DNA of 29,667 nucleotides, taken from positions 1 to 29,667 of the IMG/VR virus record IMGVR_UViG_3300033553_000030. One strand, given 5' to 3'. Positions 11,136-29,667 of this stretch are shown one piece after another. The position numbers and the translations under genes were made by a program. Source of the DNA: a virus. Numbering within the stretch: position 1 is the first letter of the stretch; the number at the start of each line of letters is the position of its first letter. The notes under the pieces are model-generated. The model worked only from the letters and a program-made list of their open reading frames with translations, had not been told where the DNA came from and searched no databases.

Positions 11136-11918
11136 TTACGGGGCATACTTCGCGGCCACGACCGCAGCTGTAATTACCGCTGCCATCTGGGCGTCAGTAA
11201 GGGTGTCACCCTTGGCTGCACGCTCGGCTAGTGCTCGGGCGATTGCTGCATCGCGTTCTGCGTTGACGAGCACTTCAGCAAGACTGCGGCGGTTGTCGCC
11301 ACGTCCTACCTTTGCGCCCCAAATCTCTTCTACTGTAGGCATATCTTCTTCCTCCGTTGTGGTTGATTGCGCAATTGACAGGAAGCGGTCCCATGGGAAG
11401 TCGGCTCCGGGGTCAGTGCGACGGGTTGGGTCAAGCTCTCTGTGTCCGACAAAGCCTCCCATTGATGGGTTGCCAGCAGCAATGGCCTTGTCGAGTTGCG
11501 TCTTGGTAATCTTGCGTACGGGAATGCCGTTCTCTCTGGCAATCTTTCCCATGTGCTTTGCTGCTCGGGTAAGCGTTTCAGTTACCCAGCGGTCAGGCAT
11601 GCTTGACCACACCATGTGGCGCTTGGAGATTTCATGCCCATACGTTGAACTGTTGTATCCACGGCAGTGCCATCCTGTGTAGGACGCTGGCAGCAGTTCA
11701 ATTGTAGAGTCAGAGTCGTTCCCTGAGTGCCATGAGACTGCGCGCGAAGTGGTTGCCGCATACCTTGCAGTGTTTTCTGCGCTGTGGTCGGTACCGATAA
11801 AGTCGAGGTCTTCCAAGCCAGCGGTGCAATGCACCACCACGCCTACAAGTGCCTTGTTCCGTGAGGTATAGAACATGTCACGGTTGGGGTTTCTGTTGTC
11901 TAGTAGGTAATAGCCCAT
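11136..11918 (-). CDS. Endolysin, N-acetylmuramoyl-L-alanine amidase, 260 aa
   Basis: The ATG at 11918 has GGGAG 7 nt upstream. The N-terminal 180 residues form an amidase_2/PGRP domain: VVVHCTAG (zinc ligand H30), NSSTYGHEI, then VGHRELDPTRRTDPG with H159 and D169 as the other AmpD-type ligands. It would cut the amide between muramic acid and the stem peptide. After an acidic linker (TTTEEEDMP) the C-terminus is helical (about 200-260), possibly a wall-binding or oligomerisation part that I do not recognise. No signal peptide is seen, so it needs a holin. It lies on the far side of the accessory block from the holin candidates. Confidence 0.9.
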   Translation of the reverse strand: MGYYLLDNRNPNRDMFYTSRNKALVGVVVHCTAGLEDLDFIGTDHSAENTARYAATTSRAVSWHSGNDSDSTIELLPASYTGWHCRGYNSSTYGHEISKRHMVWSSMPDRWVTETLTRAAKHMGKIARENGIPVRKITKTQLDKAIAAGNPSMGGFVGHRELDPTRRTDPGADFPWDRFLSIAQSTTTEEEDMPTVEEIWGAKVGRGDNRRSLAEVLVNAERDAAIARALAERAAKGDTLTDAQMAAVITAAVVAAKYAP

Positions 11919-11936
11919 CTGTTGTCTCCCTGTATG

Positions 11937-11956
11937 TGCGTGGGCTACGCCCACGC
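11937..11956 (-). other. 8-bp hairpin before the endolysin gene
   Basis: GCGTGGGC-GTA-GCCCACGC (minus strand) lies between an inverse G-tract motif (about 11970-11985) and the endolysin ribosome site. It belongs to the same style of triloop hairpin seen at 2873-2912 and 17280-17315. Confidence 0.55.
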
Positions 11957-14834: not shown

Positions 14835-15929
14835 CTAGGCCATCATGCGGTCCATGGCATCAGCAAAGGGCCGCGAGGATTCGGTCAGAACATGCGCGTA
14901 CACCTTCATCAGTGTCTGGGGCGTGCATCCCACAACTTGACTGACTTGCTCGGCGGTGAAGCCAGCCTTAATGGCAAGGGATACGTAGGTGTGCCTGAGC
15001 ACATGGCTGGACACGTGGGGTAGGTCATTCTGCTCGGCTGCTTCACGTAGGGCGTTGTTGTAGGTAGGCAGGTTGGGTGGTCTGCCCGATTCAGTCTGCA
15101 CCAGCCATAGGCCGTCATACTGTGTGCCGTCTACTTCTTTGTCGTTAAGGGAGGGGAGCTTCTTTACTTCCCCCCTCAGAATTTTCAGGCGGTTGGCTAC
15201 TGCCTTCGCTGCGCTCGGCAGCGCAACTTTCCTTAGTCGATGGTTCTTGGTGGCACGCACCGTGTAGTCACTCGCGGACCAACGCCTACGAACAACCACG
15301 GTCCCCTGTGACACGTCGTGGGGAGTCAGCCCAGCTATTTCCCCATAGCGGGCACCAGTGAACGCCTGCAATGTGGCTGTGTCTGCTTGCCATGACTCTT
15401 CCCCCCAGTTTTTTCTGAGGGAGGCAAGTAGAACCTTCAACTCCCCCGCTTCCAGAGCCACCTTCGGTTCAGCCTGCCTGCGTGGCTTGTGTCGCTTGGA
15501 ACGCACAGGGGACTTCAACACCACGTCGTCTGCCTCCATGGAACTGAACAAGGCACTGGCAGTGCGGTACACGCTGTCAGCCTTGGCCACACTCACCCGC
15601 TCCCCCACGTCGTCAAGCATGGCTGCTACGTCAGACGGCTTGACCGTGCTGGCCTTCCAGTCTCCCAGCGCGGGAACCAGATACAGCCGACAGTTGGTTT
15701 CGTGGAACTTCAACGTGGCAGCGGGGCCTGACTCGTAGCCAGCAAGCCACTGGGGGACGTAGGAGGCCACTGTGAGCGCGCTGGGCAGCCCAGTCACCCG
15801 TTGCCTAGCCCTCAGGTCTTCCTCCCACTCACGAGCCTCTGAGCGGCCTTCAAAGGTTGCGCTGTGGCTCCTTCCGTCAAGCATCACGCGGGCTTGGTAC
15901 TTGCCACTGCTCGTTCTGCGAATCGACAC
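14835..15929 (-). CDS. int: Tyrosine integrase, 364 aa
   Basis: The full domain set is present: an N-terminal arm-binding domain (VSIRRTSSGKYQARVMLDG), a SAM-like core-binding domain (about 55-140) and the catalytic domain. Active-site residues are the first Arg in FTGARYGEIAGL (about R194), HVLRHT (H309, R312) and the nucleophile in MKVYAHV (about Y344). I choose GTG at 15929 because GGAG lies 6 nt upstream; the longer frame begins with TTG at 15941. The start lies 15 bases from a pair of direct repeats that look like its own arm-type sites. It makes the phage probably temperate. Confidence 0.93.
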   Translation of the reverse strand: MSIRRTSSGKYQARVMLDGRSHSATFEGRSEAREWEEDLRARQRVTGLPSALTVASYVPQWLAGYESGPAATLKFHETNCRLYLVPALGDWKASTVKPSDVAAMLDDVGERVSVAKADSVYRTASALFSSMEADDVVLKSPVRSKRHKPRRQAEPKVALEAGELKVLLASLRKNWGEESWQADTATLQAFTGARYGEIAGLTPHDVSQGTVVVRRRWSASDYTVRATKNHRLRKVALPSAAKAVANRLKILRGEVKKLPSLNDKEVDGTQYDGLWLVQTESGRPPNLPTYNNALREAAEQNDLPHVSSHVLRHTYVSLAIKAGFTAEQVSQVVGCTPQTLMKVYAHVLTESSRPFADAMDRMMA

Positions 15930-15943
15930 GGTGCGCTCCAAGT

Positions 15944-15970
15944 CATTTGGCTGGGATTTGGCTGGCCCAG
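15944..15970. repeat. attP arm-type direct repeat pair, integrase side
   Basis: Two tandem copies of ATTTGGCTGG (CATTTGGCTGGG then ATTTGGCTGG) are followed by CCCAGTG. Nearly the same 28-base arrangement recurs at 16172-16200 on the other side of the tRNA. Paired direct repeats flanking a tRNA core beside an integrase gene are the classic form of arm-type integrase sites. Confidence 0.7.
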
Positions 15971-15997
15971 TGACCTAGGCAGAATCACCGTACACAG

Positions 15998-16035
15998 AAA
16001 AAGCCCCCACAAGCCTGTTTAGGGCCTGTAGGGGC
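15998..16035 (-). terminator. Intrinsic terminator after the tRNA-like gene
   Basis: On the minus strand GCCCCTACAGGCC pairs with its near complement in GGCTTGTGGGGGC (two mismatches, small loop), and a TTTTT run follows (16002-15998). It lies between the tRNA-like gene and the integrase. Host tRNA genes are often followed by such a terminator, so it may have come with the tRNA segment. Confidence 0.75.
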
Positions 16036-16048
16036 GTGTTTCCGTGCG

Positions 16049-16143
16049 AGGCGGGGACGGGAATCGAACCCGTGAATAGAGGATTTGCAGGCCACTCCGT
16101 GGCGTAAACCCCCTGCCTAAGTACCAAATTCGGCTATTCCGCC
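16049..16143 (-). tRNA. tRNA-Cys(GCA)-like gene with an 18-nt anticodon-loop insertion; probable attP core
   Basis: The 3' half is a normal tRNA-Cys. The anticodon-loop remnant is TGCAAA, the 3' anticodon stem is TCCTC, a 5-nt variable region follows, and the T-arm is ACGGG-TTCGATT-CCCGT. The 3' acceptor strand is CCCCGCC with discriminator U, a Cys identity base, and no encoded CCA. The 5' half has a plausible D-arm (GCC...GGC with GG in the loop) and a GGGGG anticodon strand. Two acceptor pairs are mismatched (A6, A7). The anticodon loop is 25 nt instead of 7; the extra bases include GCCAC-GGA-GTGGC, itself a hairpin. I infer that the 3' half restores a host tRNA-Cys after integration and that the phage copy is not functional. 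Confidence 0.65.
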
Positions 16144-16171
16144 AGCGGTGCGAGAGGTGAGAGCAGCGAAG

Positions 16172-16200
16172 CATTTGGCTAGGATTTGGCTAGGTCCCAG
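16172..16200. repeat. attP arm-type direct repeat pair, distal side
   Basis: Two tandem copies of ATTTGGCTAGG followed by TCCCAGTG. It matches 15944-15972 except for G/A changes in each unit and one extra base. Together the two pairs bracket the tRNA-like core over about 260 bp. Confidence 0.7.
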
Positions 16201-16222
16201 TGTGCAGTCAGCGCACAGAACG

Positions 16223-16249
16223 GCCCCCCGGCTTTTTTTACCGGGGGGC
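16223..16249 (-). terminator. 9-bp hairpin after the zinc-module gene
   Basis: GCCCCCCGG and CCGGGGGGC pair around a 9-nt loop rich in A on the minus strand. It follows the stop at 16255 directly and separates that gene from attP. It lacks a U-run downstream, so termination would be partial or factor-assisted. Confidence 0.5.
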
Positions 16250-16254
16250 ACGTA

Positions 16255-17034
16255 CTAGCCAACCTTGTGGACACCAGTGCTGGGGTTGCGCAGTTCAGGC
16301 TGCATGATTCCCCATGCACGCAAGCGCTTGGCGTCAATCACGGCGTGGGCTTCTGCATCAGCCTTGACCTTGGCGACTAGTGCATCTACTGGCAGCAGCA
16401 CTTCGTTGGCGTACTGCTCACCTTCGGCAGTCAGCTTCAGGCCAAGCCTGTCTGCGACCTTGACCAGTCGTGACCGCATTGACAGCACAACCTCTGTTGA
16501 GGCCAGACGCATATTCACGGACTCCACGCTTGCTGCGTAGGCTTCAAGGCTTTCACGGGTCAGGGAACCAGTGGTGTCCACCCAGCCCAGTTCCTTGTAC
16601 ATGCTTGCGTAACTGGCCATGGCCACCACGTAGTCAACCTGAAAGTCGTCAAACAGCGGGCCACGGGTCATGTTCCATGTACGCTTGCAGACCTTGCCAA
16701 ACCGCATGTGTTCCTTGTCGTGTTCGTTGACAAGGGCAAGCATGAACTGCTCATCCAGAGATGGCATACGTGCCCCGTGCTGCATCAGGTACATGGAGTG
16801 AGACAGGTCCAACGGGGCGTACGCAGAGGTTGCCACGTTCAGCAACTTGGAGCCTTCCACCTTGGCAGGAGGCGTAACAGCGGGCACCGCCACCCTCTTG
16901 TAGGTCTTGATTGGCTTGGCCAGCGCGCTGTCACCGTAGGCACGGTGGTTGGAGTAGTGCGCAGAGCACATGTCCTTTGCGTGTACTGGGCGGTCGCATA
17001 CTGGGCTAATGCAGTTGTTCGTTGAGTTGGTCAT
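16255..17034 (-). CDS. Unknown protein with N-terminal Cx4Cx9Cx2H zinc module, 259 aa
   Basis: The N-terminus (C8, C13, C23, H26, then AYGD and KPI) is the same treble-clef-like module as in the 142-aa and 235-aa proteins. A basic linker (KTYKRVAVP) leads to a mostly helical domain of about 190 residues that I do not recognise (FMLALVNEHDKEHMRFGKVCKRTWN, YVVAMASYASMYKELGW, EVVLSMRSRLVKVADRLGL). It lies alone between the RNA-like region and attP, where many temperate phages keep regulators. An AAGGAAAGGA site precedes the ATG. A regulatory or replication-linked DNA-binding role is inferred only from position and domain layout. Confidence 0.75.
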   Translation of the reverse strand: MTNSTNNCISPVCDRPVHAKDMCSAHYSNHRAYGDSALAKPIKTYKRVAVPAVTPPAKVEGSKLLNVATSAYAPLDLSHSMYLMQHGARMPSLDEQFMLALVNEHDKEHMRFGKVCKRTWNMTRGPLFDDFQVDYVVAMASYASMYKELGWVDTTGSLTRESLEAYAASVESVNMRLASTEVVLSMRSRLVKVADRLGLKLTAEGEQYANEVLLPVDALVAKVKADAEAHAVIDAKRLRAWGIMQPELRNPSTGVHKVG

Positions 17035-17444
17035 GTCCTTTCCTTGTATATACGGATGCCCCCCAGCAAAAACTGGGGGGCGTTGGGGTAATGGGCTACT
17101 GTGTTTCGCTAACGCTCACACAGCGTGTTCTTTTCTTTTGTCCTGTTGGGCAGTCTTCACCTTCTGAATTGGGGGAAGTCTACGTACACAGCTAGCAATA
17201 GGTGCAAGCGGTTAGTACCAACTAGGACAGTGCAATCAGGTTCCCCAAGTGCCCTTGGTTGAGAGTTGACAGAACATGGCGTGGCGAAGCCACGCGGGCT
17301 GCGAAGCAGCCCTACCCTCCGTCGTTGGCTCTTGCGAGGTCGGGACCCTGCACCCACCCTCCCGCCAACTCCATCGGGCACATTAATTTTCCCCCCCTGT
17401 GGCTAAGAAGAGAGACACAGTGAAGTGCCCCTCTTCCTAAACAC
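17035..17444 (-). other. Gene-free leader region before the 259-aa gene
   Basis: No solid gene is seen. Two side-by-side hairpins with 7-bp stems and TTC loops stand at about 17278-17314 (GGGCTGC/GCAGCCC and GCGTGGC/GCCACGC, minus strand). A 9-bp hairpin GCCCCCCAG/CTGGGGGGC lies at 17058-17081 about 24 nt before the ATG. A 23-residue frame (17383-17312, MCPMELAGG...) has a G7 tract as possible ribosome site and may be a leader peptide, but support is weak. The region is downstream of the RNA terminator, so the 259-aa gene needs its own promoter, which I could not identify. Confidence 0.5.
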
Positions 17445-17472
17445 AAAAAGGACCGGCACTGGGCCAGTCCTT
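17445..17472 (-). terminator. Strong intrinsic terminator of the RNA unit
   Basis: On the minus strand AAGGACTGGC pairs with GCCGGTCCTT as a 10-bp stem (one G-U pair) with loop CCAGT, followed by a run ending TTTTTG. It is the best classical terminator in the window. Confidence 0.88.
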
Positions 17473-17911
17473 ATCAACTCGGTATGTTCTCTTCTTAGAG
17501 CGCGTGCTTCGTTTGCGGGGAATGAGTAGTGCCACTGCTGCGTCACGTGGCTCCCCTAGGTCCGTGGCTTACCCACGTGATTCTTCGTACTAGACTATGT
17601 GCGCTATGCGCTGTGTCGGGTGACACACAGTAGGGCTAACGGTGAAGAACCGGGAGAGAATTCGTGTGCTTGCGCACTCTGAACTTACGAAGCGCCCTGT
17701 ACAGGGGCATAGCTCAGTTCCCTACTGACTCGCTGTGTTCGGTACCTTTACAGTACCGGGGCTAACAACTTCCCCTCTCTACCTAGTCCCTCCCTGAGTC
17801 AGGGGCTTGAGCGTTCCTTTCTCTCGCTCTGCGGTGCAGGCTCTGAGTGACCAGTTCCTGCGCAGTCAACTGTCATTGACCTCGTACTACTAGGTGAGCC
17901 CTTTCGGGTTC
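17445..17911 (-). ncRNA. Candidate large structured noncoding RNA, about 467 nt
   Basis: A strong promoter (17918-17947) and a strong intrinsic terminator (17445-17472) bracket about 467 bases without a credible ORF. The transcript would carry many hairpins in order: ACCC-GAAA-GGG near the 5' end; CUGCG+CAGG paired with CCUG+CGCAG; GAGCG/CGCUC; CCCUG/CAGGG; GGGG/CCCC; CGGUAC/GUACCG; UCAGU/ACUGA; GCCC/GGGC; GUGC-GCAA-GCAC inside UUCGU/ACGAA; CGGU/ACCG; UGUGUC/GACACA; UCACGUGG/CCACGUGA; and CUCU/AGAG. Two loops are GNRA tetraloops, common in compact RNAs. Long ornate RNAs such as GOLLD and ROOL are known from phages and often lie near tRNAs, as here. I cannot match this one to any family, and it is shorter than typical GOLLD. 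Confidence 0.65.
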
Positions 17912-17917
17912 CTTACC

Positions 17918-17947
17918 AGTATATACTACCCGACCCCCTTTTGTCAA
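17918..17947 (-). promoter_or_regulatory. Strong sigma70-type promoter for the RNA unit
   Basis: TTGACA (17947-17942) and TATACT (17923-17918) on the minus strand are separated by 18 nt, a perfect -35 and a 5/6 -10. The expected start is about 17911. No other site I examined in the window matches as well. Confidence 0.8.
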
Positions 17948-18006
17948 ATGGCTAGGTCGCGCAGGACTCAATGGCTCTGTTGGAAAGTGCCCGAAATAGG
18001 GCAATA

Positions 18007-18022
18007 CCACTACATGTAGTGG
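18007..18022. promoter_or_regulatory. 16-bp perfect palindrome, operator-like
   Basis: CCACTACATGTAGTGG is a perfect palindrome, with ATA before and near-symmetric GTAT after it. It lies 60 bases upstream of the -35 box of the RNA promoter, in a gene-free AT-rich stretch. It could be a repressor or activator site for that promoter. Confidence 0.5.
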
Positions 18023-18129
18023 GTATATGGGCTGTGCCCACACAACTCGACCAAAAGATAGCCCAAAAGGACTAGTCACGGCTAGTCAATGGCTACTTCA
18101 GCAAGTAGAACAAATAGGGCAATGCAGCA

Positions 18130-18157
18130 GCCCCCGCAACCAAAATGGCGCGGGGGC
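18130..18157 (-). terminator. Hairpin after the lysis-region genes
   Basis: GCCCCCGC and GCGGGGGC pair (8 bp) around a 12-nt loop containing AAAA/TTTT, immediately after the stop at 18162. No clear U-run follows. It probably marks the end of the late transcript. Between it and the RNA promoter are repeats of CTAGTCA (near 18073 and 18083) and the palindrome. Confidence 0.55.
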
Positions 18158-18161
18158 ATAA

Positions 18162-18554
18162 TTACTGCATGTCTGGGTCGTTGTCCTGTCTGTCCTTGGT
18201 CCCCCGTCCTTCCTTGGGGTACTTGTAGTTCAGGAACTCTTCCTTTTCGTCCCAGTACTTGTTACGGAACTCGTCACGCTCGTCGCGGACCCTTTCCAAG
18301 TCGTCAGTCAACTCTTGCCGGGTATTCTTCTCCCAGTCGCTGCGAGTTTCTGTTCGGCTCATCCACTTCTCTACGGCCTTTACCCCTGCCCCACCAAAAA
18401 GTGCCCCGCCCAAGGCGAGCCAGACTGACGTGTCAATTCCGGCTTGCTGTTGGGCAAGGACAATTAGTTGGGGGGAAGCATATGGGAGGTCAGACACGTA
18501 GGAAGCGAATTGCCACAACTTGTCCAGTACCACAAGTGCTGCATGGCTAGTCAC
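18162..18554 (-). CDS. Membrane-anchored coiled-coil protein of the lysis region, 130 aa
   Basis: I favour the GTG at 18554, which overlaps the previous stop as GTGACTAG; a TTG at 18584 would give ten more residues. One membrane segment (about residues 43-62, VWLALGGALFGGAGVKAV) is followed by a long charged coiled coil (WEKNTRQELTDDLERVRDER then FRNKYWDEKEEFLNYKY). Proteins of this build sit next to holins in actinophages and are probably holin partners or second holins. It is the last gene of the late operon. Confidence 0.7.
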   Translation of the reverse strand: MTSHAALVVLDKLWQFASYVSDLPYASPQLIVLAQQQAGIDTSVWLALGGALFGGAGVKAVEKWMSRTETRSDWEKNTRQELTDDLERVRDERDEFRNKYWDEKEEFLNYKYPKEGRGTKDRQDNDPDMQ

Positions 18555-18981
18555 GGAGCACCGGAGTACGAACGCCCCGGTCAAACCCGTGTTCTCGGGC
18601 CTTCGTGTTTAGGTAGGTGATGCCTTGGACTGCCGCAAAGGCAAAGTACACAACGTATGCGGGTCCTTGCAAGGATTGGCCCATCCAGAGCGTGATAGCC
18701 AAGAACAACCACAGCAGCAATGCTGCCATGTCTGCCTTAGCTCGCCACTTGAGGTTGTCGAATATCATCGTCACTTGCCCAAAGACTGCCGTGATGAGCA
18801 TGGGTATCCCAATCAGCCCACTCAACTGAAGAAAGCCTTCAGCGGTCACGGACTGGTATACCTCTGCGTAGGCAATCAGCCACCAGCCATGATAGGCCAT
18901 CAGCAGAAAGGCAACAAGGTCGTACGGCTCAAACCTGCTGTACAGGATGGAGCGCACCATCTGTGCTCGTAGTGTGTTCAT
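18547..18981 (-). CDS. Four-span membrane protein, holin candidate, 144 aa
   Basis: From the ATG at 18981 (MNTLRAQMV; GGGGGA 7 nt upstream) there are about four hydrophobic segments: LVAFLLMAYHGWWLIAYA, FLQLSGLIGIPMLITAVF, MAALLLWLFLAITLWMG and AYVVYFAFAAVQGITYL. The C-terminus is short and basic. It follows the last tail gene and precedes the coiled-coil membrane protein, a common place for holin genes. Holin function is inferred from topology and position. Confidence 0.68.
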   Translation of the reverse strand: MNTLRAQMVRSILYSRFEPYDLVAFLLMAYHGWWLIAYAEVYQSVTAEGFLQLSGLIGIPMLITAVFGQVTMIFDNLKWRAKADMAALLLWLFLAITLWMGQSLQGPAYVVYFAFAAVQGITYLNTKAREHGFDRGVRTPVLRD

Positions 18982-19021
18982 TGCATATTCCCCCAAGTGT
19001 ATTCTTTCGGTAGTTTTTTGT

Positions 19022-28304: not shown

Positions 28305-28718
28305 CTAGGCGTTACGCACGTAAAGGTCGTGGTCTAGGACATAGCGGGGTTGCTTTGTCTCTGGGTCGGGTAGGTATAGCATTCCTGAAACTGGGTCAGT
28401 TGTAGTGATTGTCATTCCCAATCCCCTCCAACCGGCTGCACCAGCAAGAGCAGCAATCACCTTCCGGCTAAGCTCATTTGCTTCGTACTGACTATTGCCG
28501 TAGCACTCAATCTGTAGTGTTGCCCTGTCAAGCGTTGCGTCCGCTCGCACGGTTCCGCCCACCCTCACCAAGCTCACTAGTGGGTACGTAGGATTGGCTG
28601 GGACGCTTGTGTAAACCCGTCCGTTGACCATCAGGGCCACTGCCATGACTGAACGCAGATACTTGACTGATGCCAATTCTGTGTCCGGCAGTGCTGCGTA
28701 GGTCGTCTGTACTGCCAT
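28305..28718 (-). CDS. Tail terminator, possible separate product from an internal start
   Basis: Within the long fusion gene, an in-frame ATG at 28718 is preceded by GGAGG (28731-28727) with an 8-nt spacer. This is as good a ribosome site as those of the other structural genes. The product would be 137 residues, a normal length for a siphophage tail terminator, which forms a hexameric ring at the top of the tail. The next gene is the major tail protein, the usual partner. I infer two products, a rare long fibre-bearing form and a short terminator. The family call rests on context, length and general fold pattern, not on a diagnostic motif. Confidence 0.6.
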   Translation of the reverse strand: MAVQTTYAALPDTELASVKYLRSVMAVALMVNGRVYTSVPANPTYPLVSLVRVGGTVRADATLDRATLQIECYGNSQYEANELSRKVIAALAGAAGWRGLGMTITTTDPVSGMLYLPDPETKQPRYVLDHDLYVRNA

Positions 28719-29667
28719 GGGCAAGACCTCCATAAGGCTTGTGGTGGTGAATCCACCTGTTACCGTTACGCCACCAGCAGACAAGAGCCGTGTGGTTGTG
28801 CTGAATTCCTCGGCTAGGATTGTCACGCTTGTCTCGCCACTACCAACCGAACTAGTCGTGTAGGTCACTACCGTGTTTGCCGTACCGAAGTACGCGCTTT
28901 CCCCTTGGCTACTTACGTCAAGGGTTACGGCAGCAGCTACTGTGCTTGACTTGGCTCCTGTGCCTGCTGTTTGGGTGACAAATCCCACCGTGGCAGAGGC
29001 AATACCTGTTGCTTCTTCTAGGCCGATTGCGCCTGAGGCAGTAGTGACAAACGACACACTGGCAGTTGTGCTGCCTGCTTTTTCTGGGGTGCCGGGTAGT
29101 TGGCTTGTAGTAAACACAGAGCTTGTAGCTGCTGTGCCTTCCTTTGAGCCTTCACCAGTAACCCCAGCGACAAATGCACTCGTCTGAGTGACTGTGCCTG
29201 CCTTGGCTGCTGTGCCCTGTACCGTTGCGGCAAAGGAAACACTGGCAGAAGCGCTACCGGAAGCCTGCGTTTCACCGGCACCAGTAGTGGCCGTAGTGAA
29301 CGTGGCACCCGCTGTAGCAGTGCCCTGTCGTGCAGTGCTTCCCGTGTTAGAGGTAGCAAAGGCAACTGCTGTATCTGCGTCCCCCGACAAATTCTGCGTC
29401 TGGAAGCCTGTGCTGGCAACGACAAAGGAAGCACTGACGGCTGTAGTGCCGCTCTTGGTTCCTGAGCCTGAAGCAAGGGTCGTATGGCTTGCTGCTGTAG
29501 TAGCAGTGCCTTGTCCCTGTTTGTTGCCTACTGTCCCCCCGACAAAAACAGCGGCTTCGTTGGCTGCGCCAACTCTTCCGCCAAATCCCTGTGTCTGGGT
29601 AGTGAGCACAGCAGTAGTGCTGGACGTTCCCGCCTTTAGCGCTGCTCCTGTAACTGCGGCAGCAAAG
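28305..29667 (-). CDS. C-terminal part of the fibre/tail-terminator fusion (bases 29527-29667 duplicate 1-141)
   Basis: This continues the frame from base 1. The first part encodes further tandem repeats of about 21 residues (GTATAGATFTTATTG, GTVTQTSAFVAGVTG, GSTTASVSFVTTASG and similar) down to about residue 890. The last 137 residues change character completely. They are compact, with a region typical of small siphophage tail-terminator proteins (charged helix ELSRKVIAALAG after a beta-rich core). The gene lies directly upstream of the major tail protein, where a tail terminator is expected. A fibre fused to a terminator would be attached at the head-tail joint. See the separate entry for the internal start at 28718. 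Confidence 0.82.
   Translation of the reverse strand, partial: FAAAVTGAALKAGTSSTTAVLTTQTQGFGGRVGAANEAAVFVGGTVGNKQGQGTATTAASHTTLASGSGTKSGTTAVSASFVVASTGFQTQNLSGDADTAVAFATSNTGSTARQGTATAGATFTTATTGAGETQASGSASASVSFAATVQGTAAKAGTVTQTSAFVAGVTGEGSKEGTAATSSVFTTSQLPGTPEKAGSTTASVSFVTTASGAIGLEEATGIASATVGFVTQTAGTGAKSSTVAAAVTLDVSSQGESAYFGTANTVVTYTTSSVGSGETSVTILAEEFSTTTRLLSAGGVTVTGGFTTTSLMEVLPMAVQTTYAALPDTELASVKYLRSVMAVALMVNGRVYTSVPANPTYPLVSLVRVGGTVRADATLDRATLQIECYGNSQYEANELSRKVIAALAGAAGWRGLGMTITTTDPVSGMLYLPDPETKQPRYVLDHDLYVRNA
29527..29667. repeat. Terminal direct repeat, right copy
   Basis: This is the second copy of bases 1-141. Removing it closes the circle and makes the fibre/terminator gene continuous (position 29526 joins position 1). 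Confidence 0.93.

Follow-up and report, generated by a model that had tools for sequence, protein, structure and literature searches.

A predicted untranslated RNA of about 467 nt between a near-consensus promoter and an intrinsic terminator in an orphan actinophage-like genome

The window analysed here is the whole 29,667 bp of IMG/VR virus record IMGVR_UViG_3300033553_000030. Nearly all of its genes lie on the minus strand, and among them we recognised those for terminase, portal, scaffold, capsid, tail, an amidase endolysin and a tyrosine integrase. Actinobacterial phages have the closest terminases and portals, with identities of about 25-35%, and judged by TerL and portal the present phage is actinophage-like. 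By sequence it is also an orphan, all searches having returned distant terminase relatives only, every one of them at 35% identity or less. At the contig end, a minus-strand ORF of 434 aa (28305-29609) matches the tail terminator family phrog_123 over its last ~130 residues, whereas its N-terminal ~300 residues, with low-complexity sequence at the start, are without a match.

A noncoding gap of more than 1 kb separates gene 16255-17034, on the minus strand like the integrase, from the genes at 18162-18996. For the latter there was no Pfam match, and the best match was a PHROG of unknown function. A preliminary description of the locus had placed a lysis region beside the gap, a label that appears doubtful given these genes and the recognisable endolysin at 11136-11954. 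The gap contains the following features:

17035-18161: intergenic gap of more than 1 kb, holding a minus-strand promoter and terminator
17968-18123, minus strand: bipartite repeat of 38 nt in two copies (ATTGCCCTATTT...AGCCATTGA), upstream of the promoter; candidate regulator or operator sites
17918-17947, minus strand: sigma-70-type promoter, TTGACA-18-TATACT, 11/12 match
17898-17912, minus strand: 5'-terminal stem-loop with a GAAA loop, GAACCCGAAAGGGCTC, read from the sequence and paired in the computed fold
17445-17911, minus strand: predicted untranslated RNA of ~467 nt, presumed to be transcribed, with a promoter upstream, a terminator at the 3' end and no coding signal
17448-17472, minus strand: intrinsic terminator with a perfect 10-bp stem, a 5-nt loop and a T tract

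The promoter is the sole site matching at 10/12 or better in the whole genome, and an 11/12 site occurred anywhere in 4 of 60 dinucleotide-shuffled genomes. The terminator lies 446 nt downstream, in the matching orientation. The preliminary description had named this the best promoter in the window, paired it with a 10-bp intrinsic terminator and reported no ORF in the roughly 467 bases concerned, and all three statements were borne out. Within the unit, ORFs beginning with ATG, GTG or TTG reach 28 codons at most, and the codon log-odds of overlapping and neighbouring ORFs were about zero to negative, compared with +0.15 to +0.51 bits per codon for genes of the phage; we rejected a hidden small gene on these codon statistics. 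Near the 5' end there is a single ATG; the ORF that it opens has 25 codons, a poorly spaced Shine-Dalgarno sequence and a codon score of +0.08.

Between the upstream repeats and the promoter, a third half-site (AGCCATT, at 17953) runs into the -35 hexamer. No copy of ATTGCCCTATTT with up to two mismatches was found elsewhere in the genome, and the phage proteins scanned included no recognisable repressor. At the expected distance from the promoter, the transcript would open with GAACCCGAAAGGGCTC, which would form a hairpin with a GAAA loop and a single A.C mismatch. A scan of IMG/VR found a promoter followed by CCCGAAAGGG in 14 contigs, where it heads phage gene leaders; about 10 of these contigs are distinct, and in the distinct ones CCCGAAAGGG follows within 4-14 nt. 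In the printed stretches of the 14 contigs that were inspected, a ribosome-binding site and start codon usually came soon after. This arrangement suggests a common 5' end cap, possibly a shared stabilising hairpin, of phage mRNAs, and its recurrence supports the predicted start near 17911 rather than an ornate fold.

The preliminary description had likened the unit to giant phage RNAs of the GOLLD and ROOL type. We ran the suggested Rfam check on 15900-18200 with permissive filters, and there was no GOLLD, ROOL, HEARO, OLE or other relevant match at E ≤ 10, so this kinship is not upheld. Genome-wide, there was no GOLLD match at E ≤ 5, and the ROOL, OLE and HEARO models were likewise unmatched; permissive thresholds gave chance miRNA-type hits only. 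Searches for relatives by sequence were also negative. Using blastn, 17040-18160 matched none of 50,697 phage records (cluster A/CA RNAs included), and no homologue of the noncoding region was found in plasmids. Seven protein- or alignment-based viral scans, covering flanking, terminase, integrase, capsid and tail proteins, returned no related noncoding region, although the single-protein scans require exact 8-residue matches and may miss moderately diverged relatives. Searching a genome collection with the terminase gave the same result, and 90 fetched viral loci searched with the noncoding DNA held no homologue. By these comparisons the unit is an orphan in sequence.

We then considered folding. 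The transcript had been credited with more than a dozen hairpins, two of them with GNRA loops. For stems closing loops of 3-8 nt, with dinucleotide shuffles as the expectation, the counts in 17911-17445 were 28 at 4 bp or more (31.6 expected), 6 at 5 bp or more (4.5 expected) and 3 at 6 bp or more (1.4 expected). There was one GNRA-closed stem of at least 4 bp, versus 0.2 expected (P = 0.14). The number of hairpins is therefore that of shuffled sequence, and the GNRA stems come down to one. The minimum free energy of the whole unit gave z values of -2.4, -2.7 and about -3.0 (the last with 40 shuffles), and its folding energy was lower than in 100 of 100 shuffles. However, 467-nt minus-strand windows of the genome average a z of about -1.3, with a standard deviation of about 1.4 over both strands (six shuffles per window, pooled standard deviation), and the unit lies only about one such standard deviation below other stretches. 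On its plus strand the unit folds about as well (-177 versus -163 in shuffles), as expected for generic hairpins, and local z values in 100-nt windows averaged -0.3 to -1.2 depending on phase, compared with about -0.6 for the genome. With hairpins at chance level and a modest z, an unusually structured RNA is unsupported beyond a mild whole-unit signal. The proposal of a large structured RNA unit, bracketed by a promoter and a terminator of its own, thus survives in part: a noncoding unit is the most likely reading, but the large structure is not sustained.

The noncoding stretch near the unit that folds most strongly lies outside it, at 17035-17444. These 410 nt have a z of -5.6 on the minus strand versus about -1.9 on the plus strand, and their stems of 6 bp or longer number nine, where 2.7 were expected. 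Three features stand out:

17398-17445, minus strand: hairpin of ~20 bp directly behind the terminator T tract (computed fold; local z about -4)
17279-17312, minus strand: two tandem 7-bp hairpins, GGGCTGC-TTC-GCAGCCC and GCGTGGC-TTC-GCCACGC (computed fold)
17058-17081, minus strand: strong G/C hairpin, a short distance upstream of gene 16255-17034 (fold; local z -4.3)

On the plus strand, the loops of the tandem hairpins read GGCGAAGCC and TGCGAAGCA. The stretch has the appearance of clustered hairpins of the terminator type, and may act as a termination or insulation zone or as the leader of gene 16255-17034. Taken together with the unit, i.e., as 877 nt from 17911 to 17035, it folds with a z of -6.8, and an 11-nt perfect complement (17498-17488 with 17413-17403) brackets the terminator.

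Proximity to a tRNA had also been offered as an argument for a giant phage RNA. The sequence concerned belongs to the following element:

15945-16191 (to 16195), minus strand: probable attP, with a tRNA-Cys-like core (16143-16049) between two AGCCAAAT repeat pairs

The core scored 31.1 bits as a tRNA (16049-16143), with ~16-18 extra bases by the anticodon. ARAGORN found no tRNA, rejecting 16049-16143 even when introns were allowed. The AGCCAAAT arm-type repeats lie at 16191/16180 and 15963/15952, 11 bp apart in each pair, and the element is directly upstream of the tyrosine integrase. This arrangement is probably that of an attP with integrase arm sites. None of 84,980 species genomes contained an exact match to the 40-nt 3' part of the core. 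A tRNA array or island was rejected, this one interrupted tRNA-Cys-like element being the only candidate. The argument from a nearby tRNA accordingly fails, because the tRNA-like stretch is part of the attP anatomy; the noncoding RNA would lie ~1.3 kb from attP and outside any tRNA island.

Our preferred explanation, which we hold with a little better than even confidence, is that the unit is the start of the principal minus-strand transcript of the phage, either early or on the lysogeny side, and that it yields an untranslated RNA of ~467 nt. RNA polymerase would start at about 17911 from the near-consensus sigma-70 promoter, copy ~467 untranslated nt with the GAAA hairpin as a 5' cap, and mostly stop at the terminator (17472-17448). 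The product would be a short, hairpin-ended and probably stable RNA, and we infer its transcription, abundance and stability from this arrangement. A minority of polymerases may pass the terminator toward the downstream gene 16255-17034 and the integrase, or may instead halt at the hairpins in 17445-17058. In the cell, the RNA might serve as the abundant untranslated early RNAs of actinophages do, i.e., in regulation or host takeover, a role not established even for those. Counting against the explanation, there is one such unit in one genome, and no homologue of the region was found.

The main rival is a long 5' leader or attenuator of gene 16255-17034 and the integrase, in which the terminator would be conditional and the relevant product would be a read-through leader of ~880 nt. 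The common minus-strand orientation of the unit and both genes fits this model, as do the folding of the 877-nt leader (z -6.8) and of its distal 410 nt (z -5.6), and the genome has no second promoter of 10/12 or better to drive the two genes. The 11-nt complement around the terminator might also seem to favour it, but it encloses the terminator rather than disrupting it and so provides no antiterminator. Read-through polymerases would meet several more hairpins downstream, and the sole ATG near the 5' end is that of the poorly spaced 25-codon ORF described above. We regard the leader as possible but distinctly less probable than a terminated RNA. Alternatively, the same 877 nt might constitute a single large structured RNA that belongs to a new class and in which the "terminator" would be one of the internal helices; the z of -6.8 is compatible with this, and we give it little probability.

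The locus might also produce no functional RNA, and consist of DNA-level control (a promoter with some other target, operator repeats and insulating terminators) or of drifting intergenic sequence. The chance-level hairpins in the body of the unit and the lack of homologues are in keeping with this, the upstream 38-nt repeats resemble operator sites, and the tandem hairpins downstream resemble insulation. Nevertheless, a near-consensus promoter followed by a perfect terminator, both within one gap of more than 1 kb, is a combination unlikely to be inert, and we consider this reading unlikely. A GOLLD/ROOL-like or other new, ornately structured RNA would agree with the location in a phage and with a folding energy below all 100 shuffles. 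It is very improbable given the absence of Rfam matches at E ≤ 10, hairpins at chance number, a z akin to those of other stretches of the genome, and the lack of a tRNA island or relatives. We attach the least weight of all to an antisense immunity RNA like that of phage P4. The absence of a recognised repressor among the proteins scanned is consistent with it, as is an antisense match of up to 14 nt to another minus-strand transcript, but 3 of 60 shuffles attained the same length. Antisense regulation of another phage transcript was rejected as not clearly above chance. In addition, the CI RNA of P4 is far shorter than ~467 nt.

Among known systems, Cutibacterium phage PA6 (PMC3652107) is likewise an actinophage of ~29.7 kb with one noncoding region of more than 1 kb. 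However, its 1.4-kb region is an AT-rich repeat array between divergent genes, with no near-consensus promoter/terminator pair, and we rejected it as an unrelated sequence rather than a homologue. With GOLLD and ROOL the unit shares the property of being a large phage-encoded noncoding RNA, here a predicted one, but it differs in having no covariance-model match, no tRNA island, no excess of helices and a length of 467 nt, many GOLLD members exceeding 800 nt (PMC12286853). Even if transcribed, it would add nothing to what is known of GOLLD and ROOL. In Rhodococcus phage WC1, three gaps are strongly transcribed; one of these, nc_2, is the 549-bp intergenic gap between integrase and excise and ranks with the most highly transcribed loci of that phage (PMC10986025). 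The unit resembles this strongly transcribed gap of ~550 bp in being noncoding and lying beside an integrase, although that of WC1 is a serine integrase, whereas the one here is a tyrosine integrase. We found no consensus-type promoter in the nc_2 gap and no sequence match to the unit.

The mycobacteriophages L5, D29 and StarStuff make a ~500-nt RNA from Pleft that has no ORF of more than ~30 codons and is the most abundant transcript (PMC5712189). About 90% of these transcripts end inside the leader, the Pleft region is toxic, and in L5 and D29 loss of its distal part was not tolerated (PMC5712189). As at Pleft in these phages, a strong sigma-70 promoter is followed here by ~500 nt without an ORF of more than ~30 codons (28 in this case). 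There are differences: Pleft heads a leftward operon at the genome end and the present unit is near the integrase, the stoperator sites of the Pleft repressor are replaced by a different repeat, and blastn against the phage collection revealed no sequence similarity to Pleft RNA. The Pleft transcript has its 3' end mostly within the leader, and in the present unit an intrinsic terminator is predicted at 17472-17448. The scan that found this terminator detected none in the D29 comparison region, so the resemblance to Pleft is one of layout and not of mechanism. In one comparison, the folding z values were -3.5 for D29, -3.3 for the minus strand of WC1 nc_2 and -2.7 for the unit. With a Pleft- and nc_2-like layout and a similar z, and with no similarity in sequence, the unit is probably a new instance, by layout, of this loose kind, i.e., an untranslated RNA from the main promoter that is terminated or attenuated. 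If it is transcribed, an orphan lineage of small temperate actinophages would join the few phages known to have an abundant untranslated RNA from the main promoter; such units recur among actinophages.
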